Origin: Nitrospirota bacterium
GTDB taxonomy: Bacteria; Nitrospirota; Nitrospiria; Nitrospirales; Nitrospiraceae
Length of the DNA: 36,311 nucleotides
Direction of reading: 5' to 3'
Assembly (NCBI GenBank): GCA_004296885.1
Contig: SCVN01000018.1
Coordinates: 66,980 to 103,290 of the forward strand
Position numbers and translations under genes: made by a program. Below are positions 202 through 10,130 of the stretch, piece by piece; position 1 is the first letter of the stretch, and each line of letters begins with the position of its first letter. The notes under the pieces were generated by a model. The model saw only the letters and a program-made list of their open reading frames with translations. It did no database searches and was not told the origin of the DNA.

Positions 202-1911
202 ATGAGACGCTTCCGACGGACAGCCTCCCCGGGAAGAATATGCCAGGCGCTCCGGGAGGTCTGGCTGATCGGCATCATTGTGCTGCTGGGAAGCTGCGTG
301 GCCCCGCTGCCCACGATGCAACAGGCAGCCAAACAGGGGGACACCAAAACCGTGCTGCTGCTCCTGGATCAGGGGGCGGATGTGAACGCCAGAACCGACC
401 GGGAACAGGTCCAAGGGATGACCCCCCTGCACTGGGCGGCCATGTACGGCCAAACGGATACCGTCAAGGCGTTGCTCGCGCGCGGCGCGGACATCAACGC
501 CAGGACAGGATACAGCGGGGAGACCGCCATCCAACTCGCGGTGACGCCCTATCGAGTCGTGGAAGGGCAGGCCGCCGCAGAGAGGGAAGCGACCGTGCAA
601 GCCCTGCTGGATGCAGGTGCGGATGTCCACAACAAGACCAAGGCGGGAGGCACGTTGCTCTGCACCGCCGCGTACCATCTCTCGCCAGACATCGTCGGCA
701 GGATTCTGGACAAAGCGAGAGACATAGAAGAGCGAGACGGCAGAGGGCAGACCCCACTGTGGTGTGCGGCTGGTTCTCCTTTTGACCGGACTGGCAACGT
801 GCGCGTACTCTTAGCCAAGGGAGCCAAGGTGAATGCCCTGGACAACCAGGGCAAATCCGTGCTCGCCATCGCCGCGCAGGTAGGCAACGCGGAGGTGGTC
901 CGCATGCTCCTTGCCAAGGGCGCGGATGCCAGCATCAAAGACCAGGAGGGATTCACGGCTTTGGATCGAGCCGAGAGCAATCATCAGAAGGACGTCGTCG
1001 CGCTGCTCGAACGCGCCATCGCCAAGCAGCAGCCTGTCATCCAGTCCCCTTCGGTTCCATCCGTTGCCGCGGCGCCGCCGGCTCCTGCGCCTCCAGTGAG
1101 CGACGTGGACCACCCACCCGTCAACAAAGCGACGGCGAAGAAGCATGCCTATGCGGTCGTGATCGGCATCGAACAGTATCAACAGCAATTACCGCGGGCC
1201 GACTTTGCGGCACACGACGCGCAGATCATGGGCCAGTATCTGAACACAACGCTCGGCTATGCCGAGGAACATGTCGTGGTCCTGCTCAACGACCGGGCCA
1301 CGAAGAATGGCGTAGAGAAGTACATCGAGGGCTGGCTCCCCGATCACGTGGAGGCGGGTGACTCGGTGTTCATCTACTTTTCGGGCCACGGGGCGCCGAA
1401 CGCCAGGACCGGCAAGGCCTATCTTGTACCCTATGACGGTGATCCGGCGTTTGTGGAGCAGACGGGCTATCCGCTTGACCGTCTGTATGACAAGCTGGCC
1501 GCACTCCCCGCGAAGGAGATCGTCGTTATGCTCGACTCCTGTTTTTCGGGAGCCGGAGGAAGGTCCGTGATCGGCAAGGGCATGCGGCCGATGGTGCTCT
1601 CGGTGGAGAATCCACTCTTGGCCAAAGGCAAGGTAGTGGTCCTGGCGGCGAGCGGCGGCGGTCAAGTCTCCTCGACCTACAACCAACAAAGCCATGGACT
1701 GTTGACCTATTTTTTCCTCAAGGGATTCCAGGGCGAGGCGGACGCGAACCATGACGGCCGCATCGAGCTGCGGGAACTGTACGAGTATCTGAAGCCGCAA
1801 GTGGAGCGGACGGCGCGGCGCGAGTTTCACAACGAACAGCAGCCACAACTGCTGGGCAACCCCGACATCCTGAGCCAGGGCATCGTGCTGATGGGAGCGG
1901 GCAGACCGTAA
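202..1911 (+). CDS. Ankyrin-repeat lipoprotein with C-terminal caspase-like (C14) protease domain, paralog 1
   Basis: The start at 202 is chosen over the upstream in-frame ATG at 139: it has a GGAGA ribosome site about 6 nt upstream and immediately gives a lipoprotein signal with lipobox LGSC (Cys32). The product is 569 residues. Residues about 35-280 are ankyrin repeats (recurring TPLHWAA, LLxxGADVN). A Pro/Ala linker and SDVDHPP lead into a caspase-like domain from about 315. The catalytic pair is visible as His396 in SGHGAP and Cys447 in DSCFSG. A loop at 514-525 (D-x-N-x-D-G-x-I-x-x-x-E) has the full EF-hand ligand pattern. It is probably anchored to a membrane facing the periplasm. Family members are caspase/metacaspase relatives; the substrate is unknown. 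It is first of three tandem paralogs, 5 nt before the next. Confidence 0.9.
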   Translation: MRRFRRTASPGRICQALREVWLIGIIVLLGSCVAPLPTMQQAAKQGDTKTVLLLLDQGADVNARTDREQVQGMTPLHWAAMYGQTDTVKALLARGADINARTGYSGETAIQLAVTPYRVVEGQAAAEREATVQALLDAGADVHNKTKAGGTLLCTAAYHLSPDIVGRILDKARDIEERDGRGQTPLWCAAGSPFDRTGNVRVLLAKGAKVNALDNQGKSVLAIAAQVGNAEVVRMLLAKGADASIKDQEGFTALDRAESNHQKDVVALLERAIAKQQPVIQSPSVPSVAAAPPAPAPPVSDVDHPPVNKATAKKHAYAVVIGIEQYQQQLPRADFAAHDAQIMGQYLNTTLGYAEEHVVVLLNDRATKNGVEKYIEGWLPDHVEAGDSVFIYFSGHGAPNARTGKAYLVPYDGDPAFVEQTGYPLDRLYDKLAALPAKEIVVMLDSCFSGAGGRSVIGKGMRPMVLSVENPLLAKGKVVVLAASGGGQVSSTYNQQSHGLLTYFFLKGFQGEADANHDGRIELRELYEYLKPQVERTARREFHNEQQPQLLGNPDILSQGIVLMGAGRP

Positions 1912-1916
1912 GGTTT

Positions 1917-3629
1917 ATGCGTGGTCGCATGATCAAGCTCCTGAGCATCCCATTGCTGGCCCTTTTGGCCGGCTGCGCCACGATCTTCACCGCCGCCCGC
2001 GACGGTGATCTTCCGACGGTGCAGACCTTGGTCACCCAAGGCGCCGACGTCAATGCCGCGAATGAGAACGGCAGCACGGCTCTCCATTTCGCGGCGGATA
2101 AGGGACGTGCGGAGGTCGTCCGGTTTCTGCTGGACCAGGGAGCCTCGGTCAACGTCAAGGCCAAGTCCGGTTCGACGCCGCTCTTGCTGGCTGCGCAATC
2201 CGGTTCTCTGGAGGTTGTCCGGCTCCTGCTGGACCGTGGCGCCGAGGTCAACGTAGAAACCGGCGCCGGCAAGGGCCACATCAATTGGACGCCTCTGACA
2301 GTGGCCGTGGAAGCCAATTCTCTGGAATTGGTACAGCTCCTGTTGAGCAAAGGGGCCGACCCGAATCTCCCGGACGACCCGACTATCGCTCCCCTCGCGC
2401 ATGCTGCGAGGAAAAACAATCGTGAGATGGTTCGCCTCCTCTTGGAACACAAAGCACATGCCGGTAAGGAGTATGCCCTGCGCATGATGGCGCTGCACGG
2501 CGATGTGGAAACCGTCCGTCTGCTTCTGGACCGGGGCGCCGATGTGAACGACCGGGGAGGGGGAGGCTGGACTGCGTTAAAGGAAGCCGCCTGGGGGAAT
2601 GATGCAGGAAAACAACTCCGCGTCATCCAGCTCCTGCTCGAGCGCGGAGCCGACCCGACCGCGATCGACGATGAAGGCTGGACCGCCGCGCGGTGGGCGG
2701 AACATCGGGGCAAGCCGGCCCTGGCCAAGGTGCTCAGAGAAGCAGAAGCGAGGGCCGCCAAGGCCGGCCCCGCGGCCCCGCTCCCGGCCGGTCCCGCCGT
2801 TCCCGCCAGCGACGTGGACCGTCTCCCGACTGCAAAGGCGCTACGAAAAAAGAACGCCTATGCCGTCGTCATCGGCATCGAACAGTATCGCGAGAAATTG
2901 CCCAAAGCGGATTTCGCCGCGCGGGACGCCACGCTGATGGGCGAATATCTGACGAAAGTCCTCGGATACCCGGAAGAGAACGTGGTGGTCCAAGTCAACG
3001 AACGCGCGACGGGCAAGGACCTGGAAAAGTATTTCGAAAACTGGCTGCCGAATAATGTCGAGAAGGATGGCTCGGTGTTCGTCTACTACTCAGGCCACGG
3101 CGCCCCGAACCCCAAAACAAGCGACGCCTACCTGGTGCCCTACGACGGCGACCCCACCTTCATCGAGTCCACGGGCTATCCCTTGAAGCGGCTCTACGCC
3201 GCCCTGGAGAAACTGCCCGCGAAGGACATCACGGTGGTGTTGGACTCCTGTTTTTCGGGAGCCGGCGGACGGTCGGTCCTCGCCAAGGGGGCCAAGCCGA
3301 TGGTGCTCTCGGTCGAGAATGCGATTGTAGCCGGAGGCAAGACCATCGTGCTCTCGGCCAGTGCTGGCGATCAGATCTCCAGCGCCTATCAGGAGCAGGG
3401 CCACGGGCTGCTCACGTATTTCTTCCTCAAAGGCCTCCAAGGAGAGGGGGACCTGAACAAGGACGGGGCGATCGACCTGGCCGAGCTGTTCGACTACATC
3501 AAACCGAACGTGAAGAAAATCGCGCGCAAGCAATACAACAACGACCAGCAGCCGCAACTGCTGGCCAGCCCGGAACTGTTGCGCAAAGGCGGGGGGCGGC
3601 TGGTCGAACTGTCGTCGCAGTCGCGGTAA
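1917..3629 (+). CDS. Ankyrin-repeat lipoprotein with C-terminal caspase-like (C14) protease domain, paralog 2
   Basis: The product is 570 residues if translation starts at 1917; an in-frame ATG at 1929 is equally possible and both ribosome sites are weak, so translation may be coupled to the upstream gene 5 nt away. The signal peptide ends in LLAGC (lipid-modified Cys20). Ankyrin repeats span roughly residues 25-285. A Pro/Ala linker and SDVDRLP precede the caspase-like domain, with His394 in SGHGAP and Cys445 in DSCFSG. An EF-hand-type loop lies at 512-523 (DLNKDGAIDLAE). By eye the protease domain is about 85-90% identical to paralog 3 but less close to paralog 1, whereas the ankyrin part is shared in type only with paralog 1. 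It is likely a membrane-tethered protease whose repeats bind a partner protein; that role is inferred. Confidence 0.9.
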   Translation: MRGRMIKLLSIPLLALLAGCATIFTAARDGDLPTVQTLVTQGADVNAANENGSTALHFAADKGRAEVVRFLLDQGASVNVKAKSGSTPLLLAAQSGSLEVVRLLLDRGAEVNVETGAGKGHINWTPLTVAVEANSLELVQLLLSKGADPNLPDDPTIAPLAHAARKNNREMVRLLLEHKAHAGKEYALRMMALHGDVETVRLLLDRGADVNDRGGGGWTALKEAAWGNDAGKQLRVIQLLLERGADPTAIDDEGWTAARWAEHRGKPALAKVLREAEARAAKAGPAAPLPAGPAVPASDVDRLPTAKALRKKNAYAVVIGIEQYREKLPKADFAARDATLMGEYLTKVLGYPEENVVVQVNERATGKDLEKYFENWLPNNVEKDGSVFVYYSGHGAPNPKTSDAYLVPYDGDPTFIESTGYPLKRLYAALEKLPAKDITVVLDSCFSGAGGRSVLAKGAKPMVLSVENAIVAGGKTIVLSASAGDQISSAYQEQGHGLLTYFFLKGLQGEGDLNKDGAIDLAELFDYIKPNVKKIARKQYNNDQQPQLLASPELLRKGGGRLVELSSQSR

Positions 3630-3680
3630 GCCTGTTGACGGCGGCCGGACCTCTCTGCCATCAGCCGACGGAGTGTGAGC

Positions 3681-5102
3681 ATGCCAAAGACCCTCCTCTC
3701 CCTGTGCGGCCCCGCCGTGCTGATGATTGCGGCGGCGTTCGCGTCCGTCGGTTGTTATGGCGAGCGCCATCTCGTGATCACACCGAACCCGGACTCGATC
3801 AATGAGGCGCCGTTGCCCTTGTCGGTCCGAGTCGAGGTGGAGCGGTTCACCCTCAATGTGGATCCGCTGATCCCGGTCGATCTCGATTTCCGGGAAGCGC
3901 TTCTCTCCTACATGAACAAGCGGCGCACCTTCCGGGAGGTGTCCGACCAGGCCTCCGAAGCGGTCTTCAAGGTCAAGGCGAAGTTGTCCATGTTGGTCGG
4001 TCACGGCACGCGGTTCATCTACCAGTTTGCCGTGTCGGCCGCGCTGCTCACCCACGACAAGGTGTCCATCGGGTCCTACGAGGCGGAAGATGAGGCGATC
4101 GGGGGGGCGACGCGTTTCACCGCCTCCGCCGACGAGCCTCCGACGAGCCTCGCATTGAATCGGGCGCTCGACAGCCTGTTTGCTAAGATAGAGGCCGATC
4201 GCGCAGCGATCCTGGCAAGACTGGAGGGGCAGCCGACTCCGTCACCGTTCGCCCGCCCCTCCTTGCCTCGCGTGCCCGTCAGCGACGTCGACCGCCTGCC
4301 CTCCGTCGTCGCGTCACCGCAGCGGCACGCCTATGCCGTCGTCATCGGCATCGAACAGTATCGCGAGAAACTGCCCAAGGCGGATTTTGCCGACCGGGAT
4401 GCCAAACTCGTCGGGGAGTATCTGACCAAGGTCCTCGGCTATCCCGAAGAGAATGTCGTGGTTCGGGTGAATGAAAAGGCGACGAAGACGGACTTGGAGA
4501 AGTATGTCGAGGCCTGGCTCCCGAACAACCTCGAAAAGGACGGCTCCGTGTTCATCTATTATTCCGGCCATGGGGCGCCGAATCCCAAGAGCGGCGACGC
4601 CTATCTTGTCCCCTACGACGGAGATCCGACCTTCGTGGAGAAGACCGGGTATCCGCTAAAGCGGCTCTACGCGCAACTGGAGAAGCTCCCCGCCAAGCAC
4701 ATTACCGTGGTGCTGGATTCCTGTTTTTCCGGCTCGGGTGGACGGTCGGTCCTGGCGGCGGGAGCCAAGCCGATGGTGCTATCCGTCGAGAACGCCATCC
4801 TGGCCGGAGGCAAGACGATCGTGCTGTCGGCCAGCGCCGGCGATCAGGTTTCCAGCGCCTACCAGGAGCAGGGGCACGGGCTGCTGACCTATTTCTTCCT
4901 GAAGGGCCTCCAGGGGGACGGCGATCTCAACAAGGACGGAACGATCGACCTGGCCGAGCTGTTCGAATACCTGAAGCCGAACGTCCAGAAGATCGCCAGA
5001 AAGCAGTACAACAACGAACAGACGCCGCAACTGCTGGCAAGCCCGGAGCTGCTCAAAAAGGGCGGGGGGCGGTTGATCGAGGCGCCGGCCTCCTCAAGAT
5101 AG
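3681..5102 (+). CDS. Lipoprotein with unrecognised N-terminal domain and C-terminal caspase-like (C14) protease, paralog 3
   Basis: ATG 3681 is preferred over the GTG at 3675 because GGAG lies 7 nt upstream. The product is 473 residues. The signal peptide ends in SVGC (Cys25), a slightly atypical lipobox with Ser at -3. Unlike its two neighbours it has no ankyrin repeats. Residues about 30-190 form an alpha/beta-looking domain I do not recognise, ending in an Ala-rich helix. A PTPSP linker and SDVDRLP lead into the caspase-like module with His297 (SGHGAP), Cys348 (DSCFSG) and an EF-hand-type loop at 415-426. The protease part is nearly the same as paralog 2, so the gene looks like a domain-swapped duplicate. 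No clear terminator follows; a T8 run lies near 5122 without a good hairpin in front. Confidence 0.88.
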   Translation: MPKTLLSLCGPAVLMIAAAFASVGCYGERHLVITPNPDSINEAPLPLSVRVEVERFTLNVDPLIPVDLDFREALLSYMNKRRTFREVSDQASEAVFKVKAKLSMLVGHGTRFIYQFAVSAALLTHDKVSIGSYEAEDEAIGGATRFTASADEPPTSLALNRALDSLFAKIEADRAAILARLEGQPTPSPFARPSLPRVPVSDVDRLPSVVASPQRHAYAVVIGIEQYREKLPKADFADRDAKLVGEYLTKVLGYPEENVVVRVNEKATKTDLEKYVEAWLPNNLEKDGSVFIYYSGHGAPNPKSGDAYLVPYDGDPTFVEKTGYPLKRLYAQLEKLPAKHITVVLDSCFSGSGGRSVLAAGAKPMVLSVENAILAGGKTIVLSASAGDQVSSAYQEQGHGLLTYFFLKGLQGDGDLNKDGTIDLAELFEYLKPNVQKIARKQYNNEQTPQLLASPELLKKGGGRLIEAPASSR

Positions 5103-5244: not shown

Positions 5245-6339
5245 ATGGCGACGCAGTTCACCACCCAGGTTCCCACCAAATACTGGCATTCGCTCGACGA
5301 CGGGCGCGTGCAGTGCGACCTCTGTCCCCGGTTCTGCAAACTGCAGGAAGGGCAGGAGGGGATGTGCTTCGTCCGCGCGCGCCGGGATAACCGGATCGTC
5401 CTCACCACCTACGGCCGCTCCAGCGGCTTCTGCGTGGACCCGATCGAGAAGAAGCCGCTGAACCATTTTCTGCCCGGCACCCCGGTCCTCTCCTTCGGCA
5501 CGGCCGGCTGCAACCTGGCCTGCAAGTTCTGCCAAAACTGGGACATGAGCAAGTCCCGTGAAATGGACACCTTGGCCGACGAGGCCTCGCCGGAAACCAT
5601 CGCCCGCGCCGCCAGGGAGCTCGGCTGCCGCAGCGTGGCCTTCACCTACAACGATCCGGTCATCTTTCACGAATACGCGATCGACGTGGCCCAGGCCTGC
5701 CGCGAGGCGGGCATTCAATCAGTGGCCGTGACCGCCGGGTACATGTGCGAGGAGCCGCGGGCCGAGTTCTACCGATATATGGACGCGGCCAACGTGGACC
5801 TGAAGGCCTTCACCGAACGGTTCTATCACCAGGTGACGAATTCGCACTTGCAACCGGTGCTGGATACGCTTCTGTATCTGAAGCATGAGACCAAGGTCTG
5901 GTTCGAGATCACCACGCTGCTCATTCCGGGCGAGAACGATTCGGACCAGGAACTCGACGCACTGAGTTGCTGGGTCGCCGAGCGGCTGGGGCCTGACGTG
6001 CCGCTGCACTTCACGGCCTTTCACCCGGATTGGAAGATGCGGGATACCCAGTCCACCCCGCCGGCCACGTTGACCCGTGCCCGCCGCATCGCCATGGGCA
6101 ACGGGCTGCGTTACGTGTACACGGGGAACGTGCATGACGAAGCGGGCGGGAGCACCCTCTGTCACCGGTGCGGGACGGTCCTCATCGGGCGGGACTGGTA
6201 TCGGCTCACGGCTTGGACCTTGACGAAGGACGGGCGTTGCCGCGCCTGCGGAACCGCGTGCGCCGGCCTCTTCGACGCCAAGCCCGGCGCCTGGGGGCCG
6301 ACCCGCCGGCCGGTCATGCTCAAGCACTTCGCCGAGTAA
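5245..6339 (+). CDS. amrS: AmmeMemoRadiSam system radical SAM enzyme (AmrS), copy 1
   Basis: This 364-residue protein carries the radical SAM cluster motif CxxxCxxC at Cys89, Cys93 and Cys96 in GTAGCNLACKFCQNW. A Cys-rich N-terminus (Cys24, 27, 31, 41) and a C-terminal zinc-ribbon pair (CHRC, CRAC) flank the barrel. VDPIEKKPLNHF and FTYNDPVIFHEY are typical of the AmrS family. AmrS is one of three partners (AMMECR1-like AmrA, MEMO1-like AmrB, radical SAM AmrS) of unsettled function; neither of the other two is in this window. The gene stands alone between the caspase array and a convergent gene. The ribosome site before ATG 5245 is weak. A second, diverged copy lies at 23700. Confidence 0.9.
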   Translation: MATQFTTQVPTKYWHSLDDGRVQCDLCPRFCKLQEGQEGMCFVRARRDNRIVLTTYGRSSGFCVDPIEKKPLNHFLPGTPVLSFGTAGCNLACKFCQNWDMSKSREMDTLADEASPETIARAARELGCRSVAFTYNDPVIFHEYAIDVAQACREAGIQSVAVTAGYMCEEPRAEFYRYMDAANVDLKAFTERFYHQVTNSHLQPVLDTLLYLKHETKVWFEITTLLIPGENDSDQELDALSCWVAERLGPDVPLHFTAFHPDWKMRDTQSTPPATLTRARRIAMGNGLRYVYTGNVHDEAGGSTLCHRCGTVLIGRDWYRLTAWTLTKDGRCRACGTACAGLFDAKPGAWGPTRRPVMLKHFAE

Positions 6340-6376
6340 CGGGGCACCTCACACGCAGCGACGCTCCTCCGCGTTT

Positions 6377-7255
6377 TCAGCGTCTGACGACCAAGACGGC
6401 GCAGGGCGCATAACGCACCACTCCGTCGGACACGCTTCCCAGCAGGAACCGACTATCCCCGGTCAGGCCCCGCGACCCCACCACCACCAGATCCGCCCGC
6501 TTGGCTTCGGCCAGCTTGACGATTTCATGGCTCGGGTTCCCGTGCAGCACCATCGTCGTCACCTCGAATCCGGCTCGCTCGATCGGCGCGGCTGCTTCGT
6601 CGGCGACCAGGCCCGCCTCCTTCTCCAGCGGGGCGAGGACGCGGTCCAGCAGCTCCGCATCGGACACTCCGGCGCCTGCTTCGATAGGAAGGGGCGGCAC
6701 GGCCGACACGACCGTGATCCGCGCGAGGTCGGGGAGCGGCAAGCCGAGCAGACACTTCACGATGGATCGCGACCGCTTGGATCCGTCCACGCCAACGATG
6801 ATCCGCTCGAACGCAGGGACTCGTTTCTTCACCACCAACACAGGGCAGGGCGCCGCCATCACGACGTGCCGCGACACGCTCCCGAGCAGGAAGCTCCGCA
6901 CGTCGGTCAGCCCTCGCGATCCCAGGACGATCAGGTCCGTCTTGCGGCGCGCGGCGATCTTGGTCAAGGCCTCCGCCGGATAGCCTCGGACCAGACTGGT
7001 CTCCACCTGAAGTCCCTCTTGGGTCAGTAACGCTTCCGCTTGACCCAGAAGGTCTCGACCGTTCCGCTCCGCTACCCCCAGGGCTTTCTCCAGGGCACGC
7101 TTGGCGGCCTGCGTCATCCCTTTGACCGGCCGGAACCGGCTGAGATCGATAACATGCACGAGCCCCACCGTTTCACCAGGCCTCGCGAGCGCGTGCTGGA
7201 CCATGTCCAGGGCCATCTGCGTATGGCGTGAGCCGTCCACGGCACAGAGAATCAT
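6377..7255 (-). CDS. Tandem universal stress protein (two UspA domains)
   Basis: The 292 residues contain two UspA domains (about 1-145 and 150-292). Each has the nucleotide-binding signature G-2x-G-9x-G-S: residues 112-126 (GSRGLTDVRSFLLGS) and 260-274 (GSRGLTGDSRFLLGS), so both sites look able to bind ATP. Each domain opens with a VDGS-type strand. Usp proteins are cytosolic stress and metabolic-state proteins. AAGGA precedes the ATG at good spacing. It sits 46 nt downstream of the P-type ATPase gene on the same strand and is probably the last gene of that transcription unit. Confidence 0.92.
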   Translation of the reverse strand: MILCAVDGSRHTQMALDMVQHALARPGETVGLVHVIDLSRFRPVKGMTQAAKRALEKALGVAERNGRDLLGQAEALLTQEGLQVETSLVRGYPAEALTKIAARRKTDLIVLGSRGLTDVRSFLLGSVSRHVVMAAPCPVLVVKKRVPAFERIIVGVDGSKRSRSIVKCLLGLPLPDLARITVVSAVPPLPIEAGAGVSDAELLDRVLAPLEKEAGLVADEAAAPIERAGFEVTTMVLHGNPSHEIVKLAEAKRADLVVVGSRGLTGDSRFLLGSVSDGVVRYAPCAVLVVRR

Positions 7256-7301: not shown

Positions 7302-10130
7302 TCATCCAGCCCCGGCGACCGTGCGTCGCACCATCAGTTTCCGCAGTTCCTCCGCGGCCAACAGCCCGATGGCTCCGGCGATCAGCGGGAGCCAGGCCCA
7401 CCAAGGCAAGGGCATGGTGCCTAACACCCGGTTCCCCAAGGGGGTATACACGATCAGCGCGAGCAGTGCCAATTCTGCGGCGATCCCCCAGAGGAGAAGC
7501 GGATTCGTCAGGAACCCCAAACGGAAGACCGAGGCTCGTTCGGACCGGCAGGCAAAGACGTTGGCCACCTGCGCCACCACGATGGCGGCGAAGGTAATGG
7601 TCGTCGCCTGACGATAGAGCGGATCAGCCCACGCGAGAGGCGCACCCCACTTCCAACCGTTGGCATGCAGAAGCCAGAAGAAGGCCGCCATGGCGATACC
7701 CGCCTCGATCAACCCAAGGAACACATAGACTCGGAGCAGCACGGGCACGCTGAGCAATCGTTCGGTTCTCGGCCTTGGCGGACTCTCCATGATGCCGGGG
7801 TGCGGCGGCTCGGCGCCCAGCGCCACGGCCGGGACCATGTCGGTCCCCAAGTCCACCGCCAACACCTGGGGAATCGTCAACGCCAGCGGAATTTGAAACA
7901 GCCCATAGCCCAGATAGGGGACGACTTCCGGGACATTGCTGGCCAACACATAGGTGACGAACTTGCGGATGTTGGCATAGACCGCCCGGCCTTCCTCGAT
8001 CGCGTTCACGATCGTGGCGAAGTTGTCATCCAGCAGAATCATGTCGGCGGTTTCTTTCGCCACGTCGGTCCCGGTGACGCCCATGGCGATACCGATGTCC
8101 GCCTTTTTGAGGGCGGGGGCGTCATTGACGCCATCGCCCGTCACCGCCACGACTTCCCCCATCTCCTTGAGCAGCGAGACGATCCGCATCTTGTGCCGGG
8201 GGGCCATGCGGGCGAACACCGACTCCGTCCGCCCGCTGTCGCGAGCGGCCAGACGTTGTTTGAGTTCGTCGTCGCTCATGGCATCCACCTGCGCGCCTTC
8301 GACGACCGACGTTGGCCGGTTCGGGTCCGCGTCGGACTCGGCGGGCACGAGTCCGATGAGACGGGCCACGGCCAGGCCCGTCAACGGATGGTCGCCGGTA
8401 ATCATGATGACCCGCACCCCGGCCTTGCGGCAGCGGGCTACGGCCTCGGGCACCTCCCGATGGGGCGGGTCCATCATGGCGACCAGCCCCAGGAAGATGA
8501 GGTCCTGCTCGACGGTGTCCGGAGTGAGGTGAGGCGCCATCCCCCGTTCGATCTCCCGCGTCGCCACCGCCAGCACCCGGTAGGCCTGATGCGCGAAGGC
8601 CCGGCTTTGCGCGAGGGCCGCCTCGCGCATGTCCTGCGTGAAGGGGACCAGCACCCCGTCCCGATACGTCCGGCTGCACAGGGCTATGATCACCTCCGGA
8701 GCGCCTTTCACGAAGGCGACCAACTTGCCTTCCATCCAGTGCAGCGTGCTCATGCGCTTGCGGTCCGCATCGAACGGCAGCTCGCCCATGCGGGCATGGT
8801 GGTTCTGGTCCGCCGGGCCGTACTGTTGGGCAAACGTCAAGAGCGCCACTTCGGTGGGGTCTCCCTGCATCGTCGTGAGGGAGCCGGAGCCCTCGCCGCG
8901 CCGGACCAGCCGGGCGTTATTGCAGAGGGCCGAGGCCAGACACAAGAGGCGCAGGGATTCCTGCTCGGACACCTGGCAGGCCCGGCCTTGCAGGAAGAAT
9001 TGCCCGTCGCGCACCTCCACCTCGCCGCCGTTCACATACAGGCGCTCGACCTCCATGCGGTTCATCGTGAGCGTGCCGGTCTTGTCCGTACAGATCACGG
9101 TCGTGCAGCCCAAGGTTTCGACGGAGGTCAGTTGTTTGATCAAGGCCTTGCGCTTGGCCATCCGCTGACTGCCCATCGCGAGCGCGAGGGTCACGGCCGG
9201 CAGGAGCCCTTCGGGCACATTGGCCGCAATGATCCCGATCCCGAAGACGGCGCTGACCCAAAAGCCCAGGCCCATGAACCAGCCGATGACAAAGAAGGCC
9301 AGCCCCATGACGGAGGACAGGATGGCCACCACATGCGTCACCCGGACGATCTCGCGTTGGAGCGGGCTCAATCCGGACTCGACCATCGTGGTCATTTGCG
9401 CGATCTTGCCGAACTCCGTCCGGATCCCCGTCGCATAGACGACGGCGCGCCCCCGGCCGGACAAGATCGTCGTCCCGGCAAACACGAGGTTGGCGGCCTC
9501 CAACGGATTGCGATCGGCATCGGTCACGGCCTCCGCATGGTGCCGCTTGGGCTTGGCCTCGCCGGTTAAGGAGGAATTGTCCAGGCGCAGACCGATGGCC
9601 TCGATCAGCCGCGCATCGGCCGGCACTTGCTCCCCCTCTTCCAGCAGCAGGAGATCGCCCGACACCAATTCTCGCCGAGGCACCTCGTGCGGCTGGCCCG
9701 AGCGCAGGACCCAAGCCATGGCGGGGAGGAGACGGCGGAGCGCTTGCACAGCCCGTTCCGCCTTGTATTCCTGGATAAAGGAGAAGCAGGCGTTGATCAG
9801 GATCACGCCCAGAATCGCCCAGCCGAGCGTGGCCATCCCTTGTCCCGGTTGGAAGAACTCGGCCAGAAAGGAAAGTCCGGCGGCAACCCAGAGCAGGAGG
9901 GCAAGGAAATGCGTGAACTGCCGGAGAAACCGCAAGACGAGGGACGGACCTTTGACCTCCTGAAGGCTGTTCGGTCCGTCACGAAGGAGCCGCAGGCGGG
10001 CCTCCGCCGGCGACAGCCCGTCCGACGTGGTGTCGAGCGCGTTCAGCGTATCGCCGGGAGCAAGGCGTGCAACATCCATCGGTGACGGAGTCGATGATCG
10101 GGTCAACGTACGGTCACGCGTGTCGCCCAC
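7302..10130 (-). CDS. P-type cation-transporting ATPase, Na,K-ATPase-like (type II)
   Basis: The product is 942 residues from a GTG start at 10130, supported by AGGAG 8 nt upstream; an ATG at 10079 has no ribosome site. Domains in order: cation ATPase N-terminal domain, actuator domain with TGEA at 189-192, M4 motif NVPEGLLP (304-311), phosphorylation site DKTGT with Asp349, nucleotide-binding domain, TGDGVND hinge and C-terminal membrane helices. The M4 motif and LGTDMVPA in M6 resemble the Na,K/H,K-ATPase group more than SERCA (PEGLPA). It presumably pumps Na+ or another cation; ion choice cannot be fixed from sequence here. No beta subunit is adjacent. The start lies only 11 nt after the decarboxylase stop, so the two are probably co-transcribed. 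Confidence 0.92.
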   Translation of the reverse strand: MGDTRDRTLTRSSTPSPMDVARLAPGDTLNALDTTSDGLSPAEARLRLLRDGPNSLQEVKGPSLVLRFLRQFTHFLALLLWVAAGLSFLAEFFQPGQGMATLGWAILGVILINACFSFIQEYKAERAVQALRRLLPAMAWVLRSGQPHEVPRRELVSGDLLLLEEGEQVPADARLIEAIGLRLDNSSLTGEAKPKRHHAEAVTDADRNPLEAANLVFAGTTILSGRGRAVVYATGIRTEFGKIAQMTTMVESGLSPLQREIVRVTHVVAILSSVMGLAFFVIGWFMGLGFWVSAVFGIGIIAANVPEGLLPAVTLALAMGSQRMAKRKALIKQLTSVETLGCTTVICTDKTGTLTMNRMEVERLYVNGGEVEVRDGQFFLQGRACQVSEQESLRLLCLASALCNNARLVRRGEGSGSLTTMQGDPTEVALLTFAQQYGPADQNHHARMGELPFDADRKRMSTLHWMEGKLVAFVKGAPEVIIALCSRTYRDGVLVPFTQDMREAALAQSRAFAHQAYRVLAVATREIERGMAPHLTPDTVEQDLIFLGLVAMMDPPHREVPEAVARCRKAGVRVIMITGDHPLTGLAVARLIGLVPAESDADPNRPTSVVEGAQVDAMSDDELKQRLAARDSGRTESVFARMAPRHKMRIVSLLKEMGEVVAVTGDGVNDAPALKKADIGIAMGVTGTDVAKETADMILLDDNFATIVNAIEEGRAVYANIRKFVTYVLASNVPEVVPYLGYGLFQIPLALTIPQVLAVDLGTDMVPAVALGAEPPHPGIMESPPRPRTERLLSVPVLLRVYVFLGLIEAGIAMAAFFWLLHANGWKWGAPLAWADPLYRQATTITFAAIVVAQVANVFACRSERASVFRLGFLTNPLLLWGIAAELALLALIVYTPLGNRVLGTMPLPWWAWLPLIAGAIGLLAAEELRKLMVRRTVAGAG

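Follow-up and report, generated by a model that had tools for sequence, protein, structure and literature searches.

How a bacterium comes to encode, side by side, three predicted lipoproteins that share one caspase-like protease and differ in what stands in front of it is the question raised by the genes between positions 202 and 5102 of the window, the whole 36,311-nucleotide stretch analysed here. The window belongs to contig C18 of a 3.26 Mb genome whose nearest relatives are metagenome genomes of Nitrospiraceae. To our knowledge, most bacterial caspase relatives have no known function, and a good part of the experiments concerns cytoplasmic forms.

Nitrospirae have a high density of metacaspases, 1.11 per 1000 proteins, with 57% conservation of the catalytic dyad, and many of these proteins have possible signal peptides (Asplund-Samuelsson 2012, PMC3501461). 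Operons with several metacaspases, up to three genes, have been described in four groups, Nitrospirae not among them (PMC3501461). A lipoprotein caspase family in which a constant protease is combined with recombining N-terminal domains found no account in the literature searched, with subscription papers and most preprints outside its coverage.

The three-gene array and its common protease

The three lipoprotein genes run head to tail on the forward strand, separated in the open reading frame listing by gaps of 5 and 45 nt, and are composed as follows.

202..1911, + strand: copy 1, lipoprotein with ankyrin array and C14 protease; lipobox LLGSC, Cys codon 295-297 (open reading frame; Pfam Ank and C14)
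322..1023, + strand: copy 1 ankyrin-repeat domain, about 5 repeats (Pfam Ank_2/Ank; our own ankyrin HMM)
1099..1899, + strand: copy 1 SDVD linker and C14 module (blastn homology to the copy 2 module of the sister species G003 from 1099; C14 HMM start 1144)
1917..3629, + strand: copy 2, lipoprotein with ankyrin array and C14 protease; lipobox LLAGC, Cys codon 1974-1976 (open reading frame; Pfam)
1980..2756, + strand: copy 2 ankyrin-repeat domain, about 7 repeats (Pfam; our own ankyrin HMM)
2808..3617, + strand: copy 2 SDVD linker and C14 module (C14 HMM; module search)
3555..3629, + strand: 3' end of copy 2, probable join of the copy 3 insertion (sliding identity)
3675..5102, + strand: copy 3, lipoprotein with LptE-like N-domain and C14 protease; lipobox ASVGC, Cys codon 3753-3755 (open reading frame)
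3753..4229, + strand: copy 3 N-domain (N1), modelled with the LptE/CsgG/PelC/PqiC outer-membrane lipoprotein fold (AlphaFold model, Foldseek, VIA-align)
4281..4325, + strand: copy 3 SDVDxxP linker, putative 5' border of N-domain exchange (motif; sister-species homology from 4271)
4326..5087, + strand: copy 3 C14 protease module; His299 codon 4569-4571, Cys350 codon 4722-4724
4923..4958, + strand: EF-hand-like loop DLNKDGTIDLAE in the copy 3 protease module (pattern search; Pfam EF-hand below cut-off)

Pfam assigns Peptidase_C14 to all three copies, with E-values of 2e-14, 2e-19 and 9e-19 in gene order, and ankyrin repeats to copies 1 and 2; in copy 3 it finds no other domain. The preliminary description of this DNA had read here three adjacent lipoprotein genes with a common caspase-like protease, intact His and Cys, and different front ends, and the reading frames, Pfam domains, lipoboxes and catalytic residues all agree with it. 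It had also recognised that copies 2 and 3 have the closest proteases (87% identical, against 63% for copies 1 and 2) on unrelated N-termini, which reach 28% identity in a low-scoring alignment. The lipoboxes of copies 1 and 2 are canonical and that of copy 3 is relaxed, with Ser at -3 and Tyr at +2.

Copy 3 is followed by a 142-nt gap and a radical SAM gene (5245-6339), and the neighbours of the array within the window are housekeeping genes, namely those for the radical SAM protein, Usp, a cation ATPase and methylmalonyl-CoA mutase. The cation-transporting P-type ATPase (7302-10130, - strand) is ordinary and is recorded with the EF-hand-like loop of the proteases in mind.

Modelled with AlphaFold (pLDDT 71.7), copy 3 has the caspase-haemoglobinase fold in its residues 218-470, which align in space with metacaspase 4 of Arabidopsis at a Z score of 20.2 and an rmsd of 3.2 over 215 residues, and with MALT1 at a Z score of about 18; loops 351-374 and 389-399 are of low confidence. 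His299, in an SGHG motif, and Cys350, in a DSC motif, align with solved metacaspases, the DSC match being a weak and separate one, and the placement of the catalytic residues among C14 proteases is thereby borne out in the model. The His-Cys dyad is kept in all 96 members of the subfamily, and so are an Asp at C-2 and the helix residue Asp242. Because these two conserved acids are, as we take them to be, the ones that line the S1 pocket in TbMCA2 and MALT1, Arg/Lys specificity is expected, and their conservation suggests cleavage after Arg or Lys.

An EF-hand-like loop pattern occurs in 48 of 53 Nitrospiraceae members, the own genome included, and in 4 of 43 members elsewhere; as a feature of the whole family it was dropped, being mostly confined to Nitrospiraceae, and calcium control of the members there is an idea worth testing. 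NCBIfam NF047832 (caspase, EACC1-associated) was not reached at its cut-off of 140 bits by any of seven proteins tested, which scored 84-100 bits. With prokaryotic metacaspases and orthocaspases (PF00656) the subfamily has in common the C14 fold, the His-Cys dyad and the acids expected for Arg/Lys specificity, but it differs from them in its predicted lipid anchor, its SDVDxxP joint and its recombining ankyrin, LptE-like and other N-domains.

Front domains and their exchange at the module border

The front of copy 3, which the preliminary description could not recognise, can now be modelled, with a pLDDT of 80 and a pTM of 0.76 when folded alone in AlphaFold. Foldseek matches it to LptE, CsgG and Cj1090c with E-values of about 1e-5 to 1e-4, and VIA-align gives Z scores of 12.4 for XCC0632 (DUF330/PqiC), 10.9 for CsgG and 10.1 for PelC; with few exceptions, the best structural matches belong to lipoproteins of the outer membrane (LptE, CsgG, PelC, GNA1162, Cj1090c and DUF330/PqiC). 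The domain shares with the LptE/CsgG/PelC/PqiC lipoproteins its fold and its position behind the lipobox, but it is fused to a protease and has no sequence match in Pfam, the LptE, CsgG and GNA1162 families included. L125, an own-genome member related to this N1 domain, scores above the LptE cut-off of Pfam.

Elsewhere in the family the front is an ankyrin array, a domain called N2, S41-PDZ or another domain. L050 (4495-6825) has PDZ and an S41 C-terminal-processing protease ahead of the same C14 module according to Pfam, and similarly long N-terminal regions are found in L061 (3309-5282) and L071 (253-2478), PDZ/S41 being Pfam-confirmed in L050 only. Such an S41-PDZ-C14 fusion is typical of exported proteins and speaks for export of the family. 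A strict lipobox pattern fits 58 of 90 members, with Ala, Val, Gly, Ser, Thr or Met and never Asp at +2, and among the 32 that this filter missed some show a relaxed lipobox, and others a signal peptide alone or a start that is set wrongly. Export and lipid anchoring are supported by these predicted features, and the modelled N1 fold supports a place on the periplasmic face of the outer membrane.

Two junctions show how fronts are exchanged. L015 of the own genome, with an N2 front, and L096 of G014, a genome of another genus, with an N1b front, are syntenic, and their proteases are 87% identical and reciprocal best matches; the N-domains are unrelated, each being nearer to N-domains at other loci. 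Homology between the two ends upstream of the sequence coding for the N-domain and returns at nt 5766, the module starting at 5763. L065 (5425-6849) agrees in its N-domain with one L052 gene (91%) and in its protease with the family gene after that one (97%), with the reciprocal halves at 44% and 70%. Over 483 informative sites, with 230 of 251 and 204 of 232 in agreement on the two sides, this chimera is explained by one crossover, located at 6108-6116; the module starts at 6124, 8-16 nt further on.

Of 91 members, 69 have an SDVDxxP-type motif, in most cases 14 aa ahead of the module, with a background of 7 in 454 windows, and by its position it marks the joint between N-domain and protease. 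From the sequence evidence, new pairings of N-domain and protease arise through recombination at the edges of the protease module. The protease tree, a quick tree of 96 rows, agrees: nine N1 rows stand at nine separate places, their nine changes are no improvement on what shuffled labels give, and at least five N1 changes are imposed by branches with good support, these N-type counts being approximate because N1 may be two families, in which case part of the nine-place scatter is expected. The profiles of the two putative families, N1a (copy 3-like) and N1b, give no match once the linker is removed (hhalign probability 1.4%). Weak matches of the N1 and N2 profiles to ankyrin proteins were set aside as due to the shared linker. 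Between the mapped exchanges and the scatter of N-domain types on the tree, the earlier proposal that the modules have been shuffled stands.

The opposite replacement is possible in one pair, L016 (6604-8145) and L083 of G001 (5552-6982), with a protease dS of 1.47 and an N-domain dS of 0.41; the protease module may have been the part replaced there. Over ten orthologue pairs, dN/dS (NG86, with synonymous sites near saturation in a few pairs) is 0.04-0.16 in the protease and 0.23-0.49 in the N-domain. By this estimate the protease is maintained and the front evolves several-fold faster, with dN/dS never above 1.

Spread of the family and turnover of arrays

The family to which the array belongs is dispersed through its own genome, which has 15 PF00656 hits; a search with the copy 3 module brings in 3 further C14-like proteins, namely C23:44188 (56% identity) and two relatives at 35%. 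The constant module is common to 12 own-genome proteases, and other exported C14 proteins are present as well, as are C14 fusions with FGE-sulfatase, WD40 and TPR domains. Across the relatives PF00656 counts run from 0 to 15. Tandem arrays occur at 15 places among 73 loci, and 8 of these 15 mix N-domain types. Homologs are therefore not single-copy everywhere, and a one-species duplication is ruled out, since arrays recur at other loci and the array site is common to sister species. One correction to the preliminary description, which thought that an anchored array with variable sensors would be unusual, is that Nitrospiraceae and Desulfobacterota commonly have exported, lipid-anchored caspase relatives.

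The two 35% relatives, L126 (5637-7694; G000:C8:47690) and L127 (5780-7750; G000:C14:18839), keep the lipobox and a VDQVP joint and have lost both catalytic residues, SGRAQ/LDVT and AGQAL/FDGA standing in place of the His/Cys motifs. Similar relatives with frames of 650-700 residues are found in many related genomes, the residues having been read in L126 and L127 only, and proteins of this type may be conserved pseudo-caspase regulators. Another ankyrin-C14 gene, L107 (4601-5968; G007:C4), has an in-frame TAA inside the protease and looks like either a decaying copy or an assembly error. L052 (5413-6867), from a Nitrospirae genome, and L049 (3815-5197), from Candidatus Desulfaltia (Desulfobacterota), have proteases 88% and N-domains 40% identical, a likeness that suggests transfer between phyla.

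As for conservation of the array itself, the locus is common to three species at the same chromosomal site, with flanks about 75-88% conserved, and its exact three-gene make-up is particular to the own species among those compared. G001 has copies 1 and 2, its copy 1 orthologue being 94% identical in the protease and 69% in the N-domain, and G003, from which copy 1 is absent, has copy 2 only; copy 2 is thus the member found in all three and copy 3 at this locus the one found in a single species. A sliding comparison shows copy 2 to be orthologous through most of the protease, with the 3' end of the ancestral gene and its downstream sequence now behind copy 3: in the 3' end region identity to G001 is mostly 89-94% for copy 3 and 47-67% for copy 2. 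The simplest reading is that a unit made up of a protease and a new front was inserted close to the 3' end of the copy 2 protease module; loss of copy 3 in both sisters would be less parsimonious. A second locus also varies, with one gene in the own genome, two in G001 and three in G014. Since the majority of family loci hold steady from one sister species to the next, as chromosomal orthologues at the same sites, exchange is not rapid everywhere.

Many arrays of Desulfobacterota and some Nitrospirota are followed, about 0-40 nt 3', by a gene for a secreted protein with DUF4384 as its C-terminal domain. Among 61 relatives, 33 of 67 DUF4384 hits lie within 5 kb of, or are fused to, a C14 domain, against an expectation of about 1%; the expectation is crude, and some loci are orthologues or of other C14 types. 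The own genome has two DUF4384 proteins, neither adjoining caspase genes; one of them, the secreted L124 (6846-7745; G000:C23:16334), has a conserved N-terminal half, and genes for L124-like DUF4384 proteins stand directly 3' of the arrays at L050, L052, L053 and others, as their operon partners. DUF4384 is an accessory domain in 23 cyanobacterial orthocaspases (PMC8283722). The pairing of DUF4384 with C14 is common to both groups, whereas here the domain is mostly a separate secreted protein beside the array or, as in the own genome, unlinked.

Possible roles of an exchangeable front

We think it somewhat more probable than its alternatives taken together that these genes form a lipoprotein protease family with a constant C14 part and an exchangeable, recombining front, aimed at envelope partners. 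Most likely, as we infer their location, activity and function, the members are periplasm-facing, outer-membrane-anchored Arg/Lys-type proteases aimed by means of exchangeable binding domains. The mature protein would be lipid-anchored in the outer membrane and face the periplasm, and its front domain would bind an envelope component or signal; the bound front would place or release the tethered protease and so set when it cuts and what is cut, with cleavage after Arg or Lys as in metacaspases and MALT1. The secreted DUF4384 proteins, which in relatives adjoin C14 proteins or are joined to them in fusions, would act in the same pathway. Against this reading weigh the atypical Ser in the copy 3 lipobox, the members outside the strict lipobox pattern, the unlinked DUF4384 proteins of the own genome and the stability of most family loci. 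The earlier suggestion that the three copies answer different signals and act on a common target fits this scheme. A bolder form of it, tentative and with the odds against it, is a periplasmic surveillance repertoire, in which an anchored caspase effector would be continually re-paired with recognition domains at a dedicated joint, and the dead relatives and DUF4384 proteins would be regulators.

The fast-evolving variable fronts on a constant effector, and the array make-up that differs between sister species, would also suit a periplasmic conflict or immune system, whose N-domains would sense phage parts or delivered toxins and whose protease would damage the envelope or kill the cell; in bacterial conflict systems, peptidases of the caspase type have been predicted to serve as effectors (PMC10907252). 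We consider this unlikely. PADLOC finds only partial matches at the window, to generic caspase and ankyrin-containing profiles, beside neighbours that are housekeeping genes, and most copies are chromosomal orthologues kept at the same sites, with N-domain dN/dS below 1. Polymorphic toxin systems with caspase-like domains (PMC3482391) are exported too and recombine a constant part with many variable parts, but their C-terminal toxin varies, whereas here the C-terminal protease is constant and the front varies, and an unsystematic look brought no linked immunity gene to notice.

Housekeeping quality control of the envelope, with LptE/CsgG/PelC-like domains docking on outer-membrane machines and the protease removing or maturing faulty parts, would account for an N1 fold that is that of outer-membrane export machine subunits, for a strongly constrained protease and for the fusion with an S41-PDZ protease. 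It is nevertheless doubtful, as array size and N-domain identity differ between sisters, which is unexpected with fixed housekeeping partners, and ankyrin arrays are atypical for such machines. Neutral duplication, in which paralogues drift and recombine without selected diversity, could explain the copies that look broken, such as the G007 gene with its in-frame stop, and the varying array composition among species, but we give it very little credence: all 96 members keep the dyad, protease dN/dS is as low as reported above, the same few N-domain kinds return on separate protease lineages, and the junctions fall at the module border.

Under the favoured reading of an anchored protease aimed by its front, many active-looking caspase-type copies would be placed outside the inner membrane in the environmentally widespread Nitrospirota and Desulfobacterota, and a route by which one protease acquires new front domains has been mapped. 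If the surveillance repertoire were true, it would be an extracytoplasmic counterpart of intracellular sensor-caspase systems. A general question is made testable with this family, namely whether the substrate of a bacterial caspase is chosen by its front domain.
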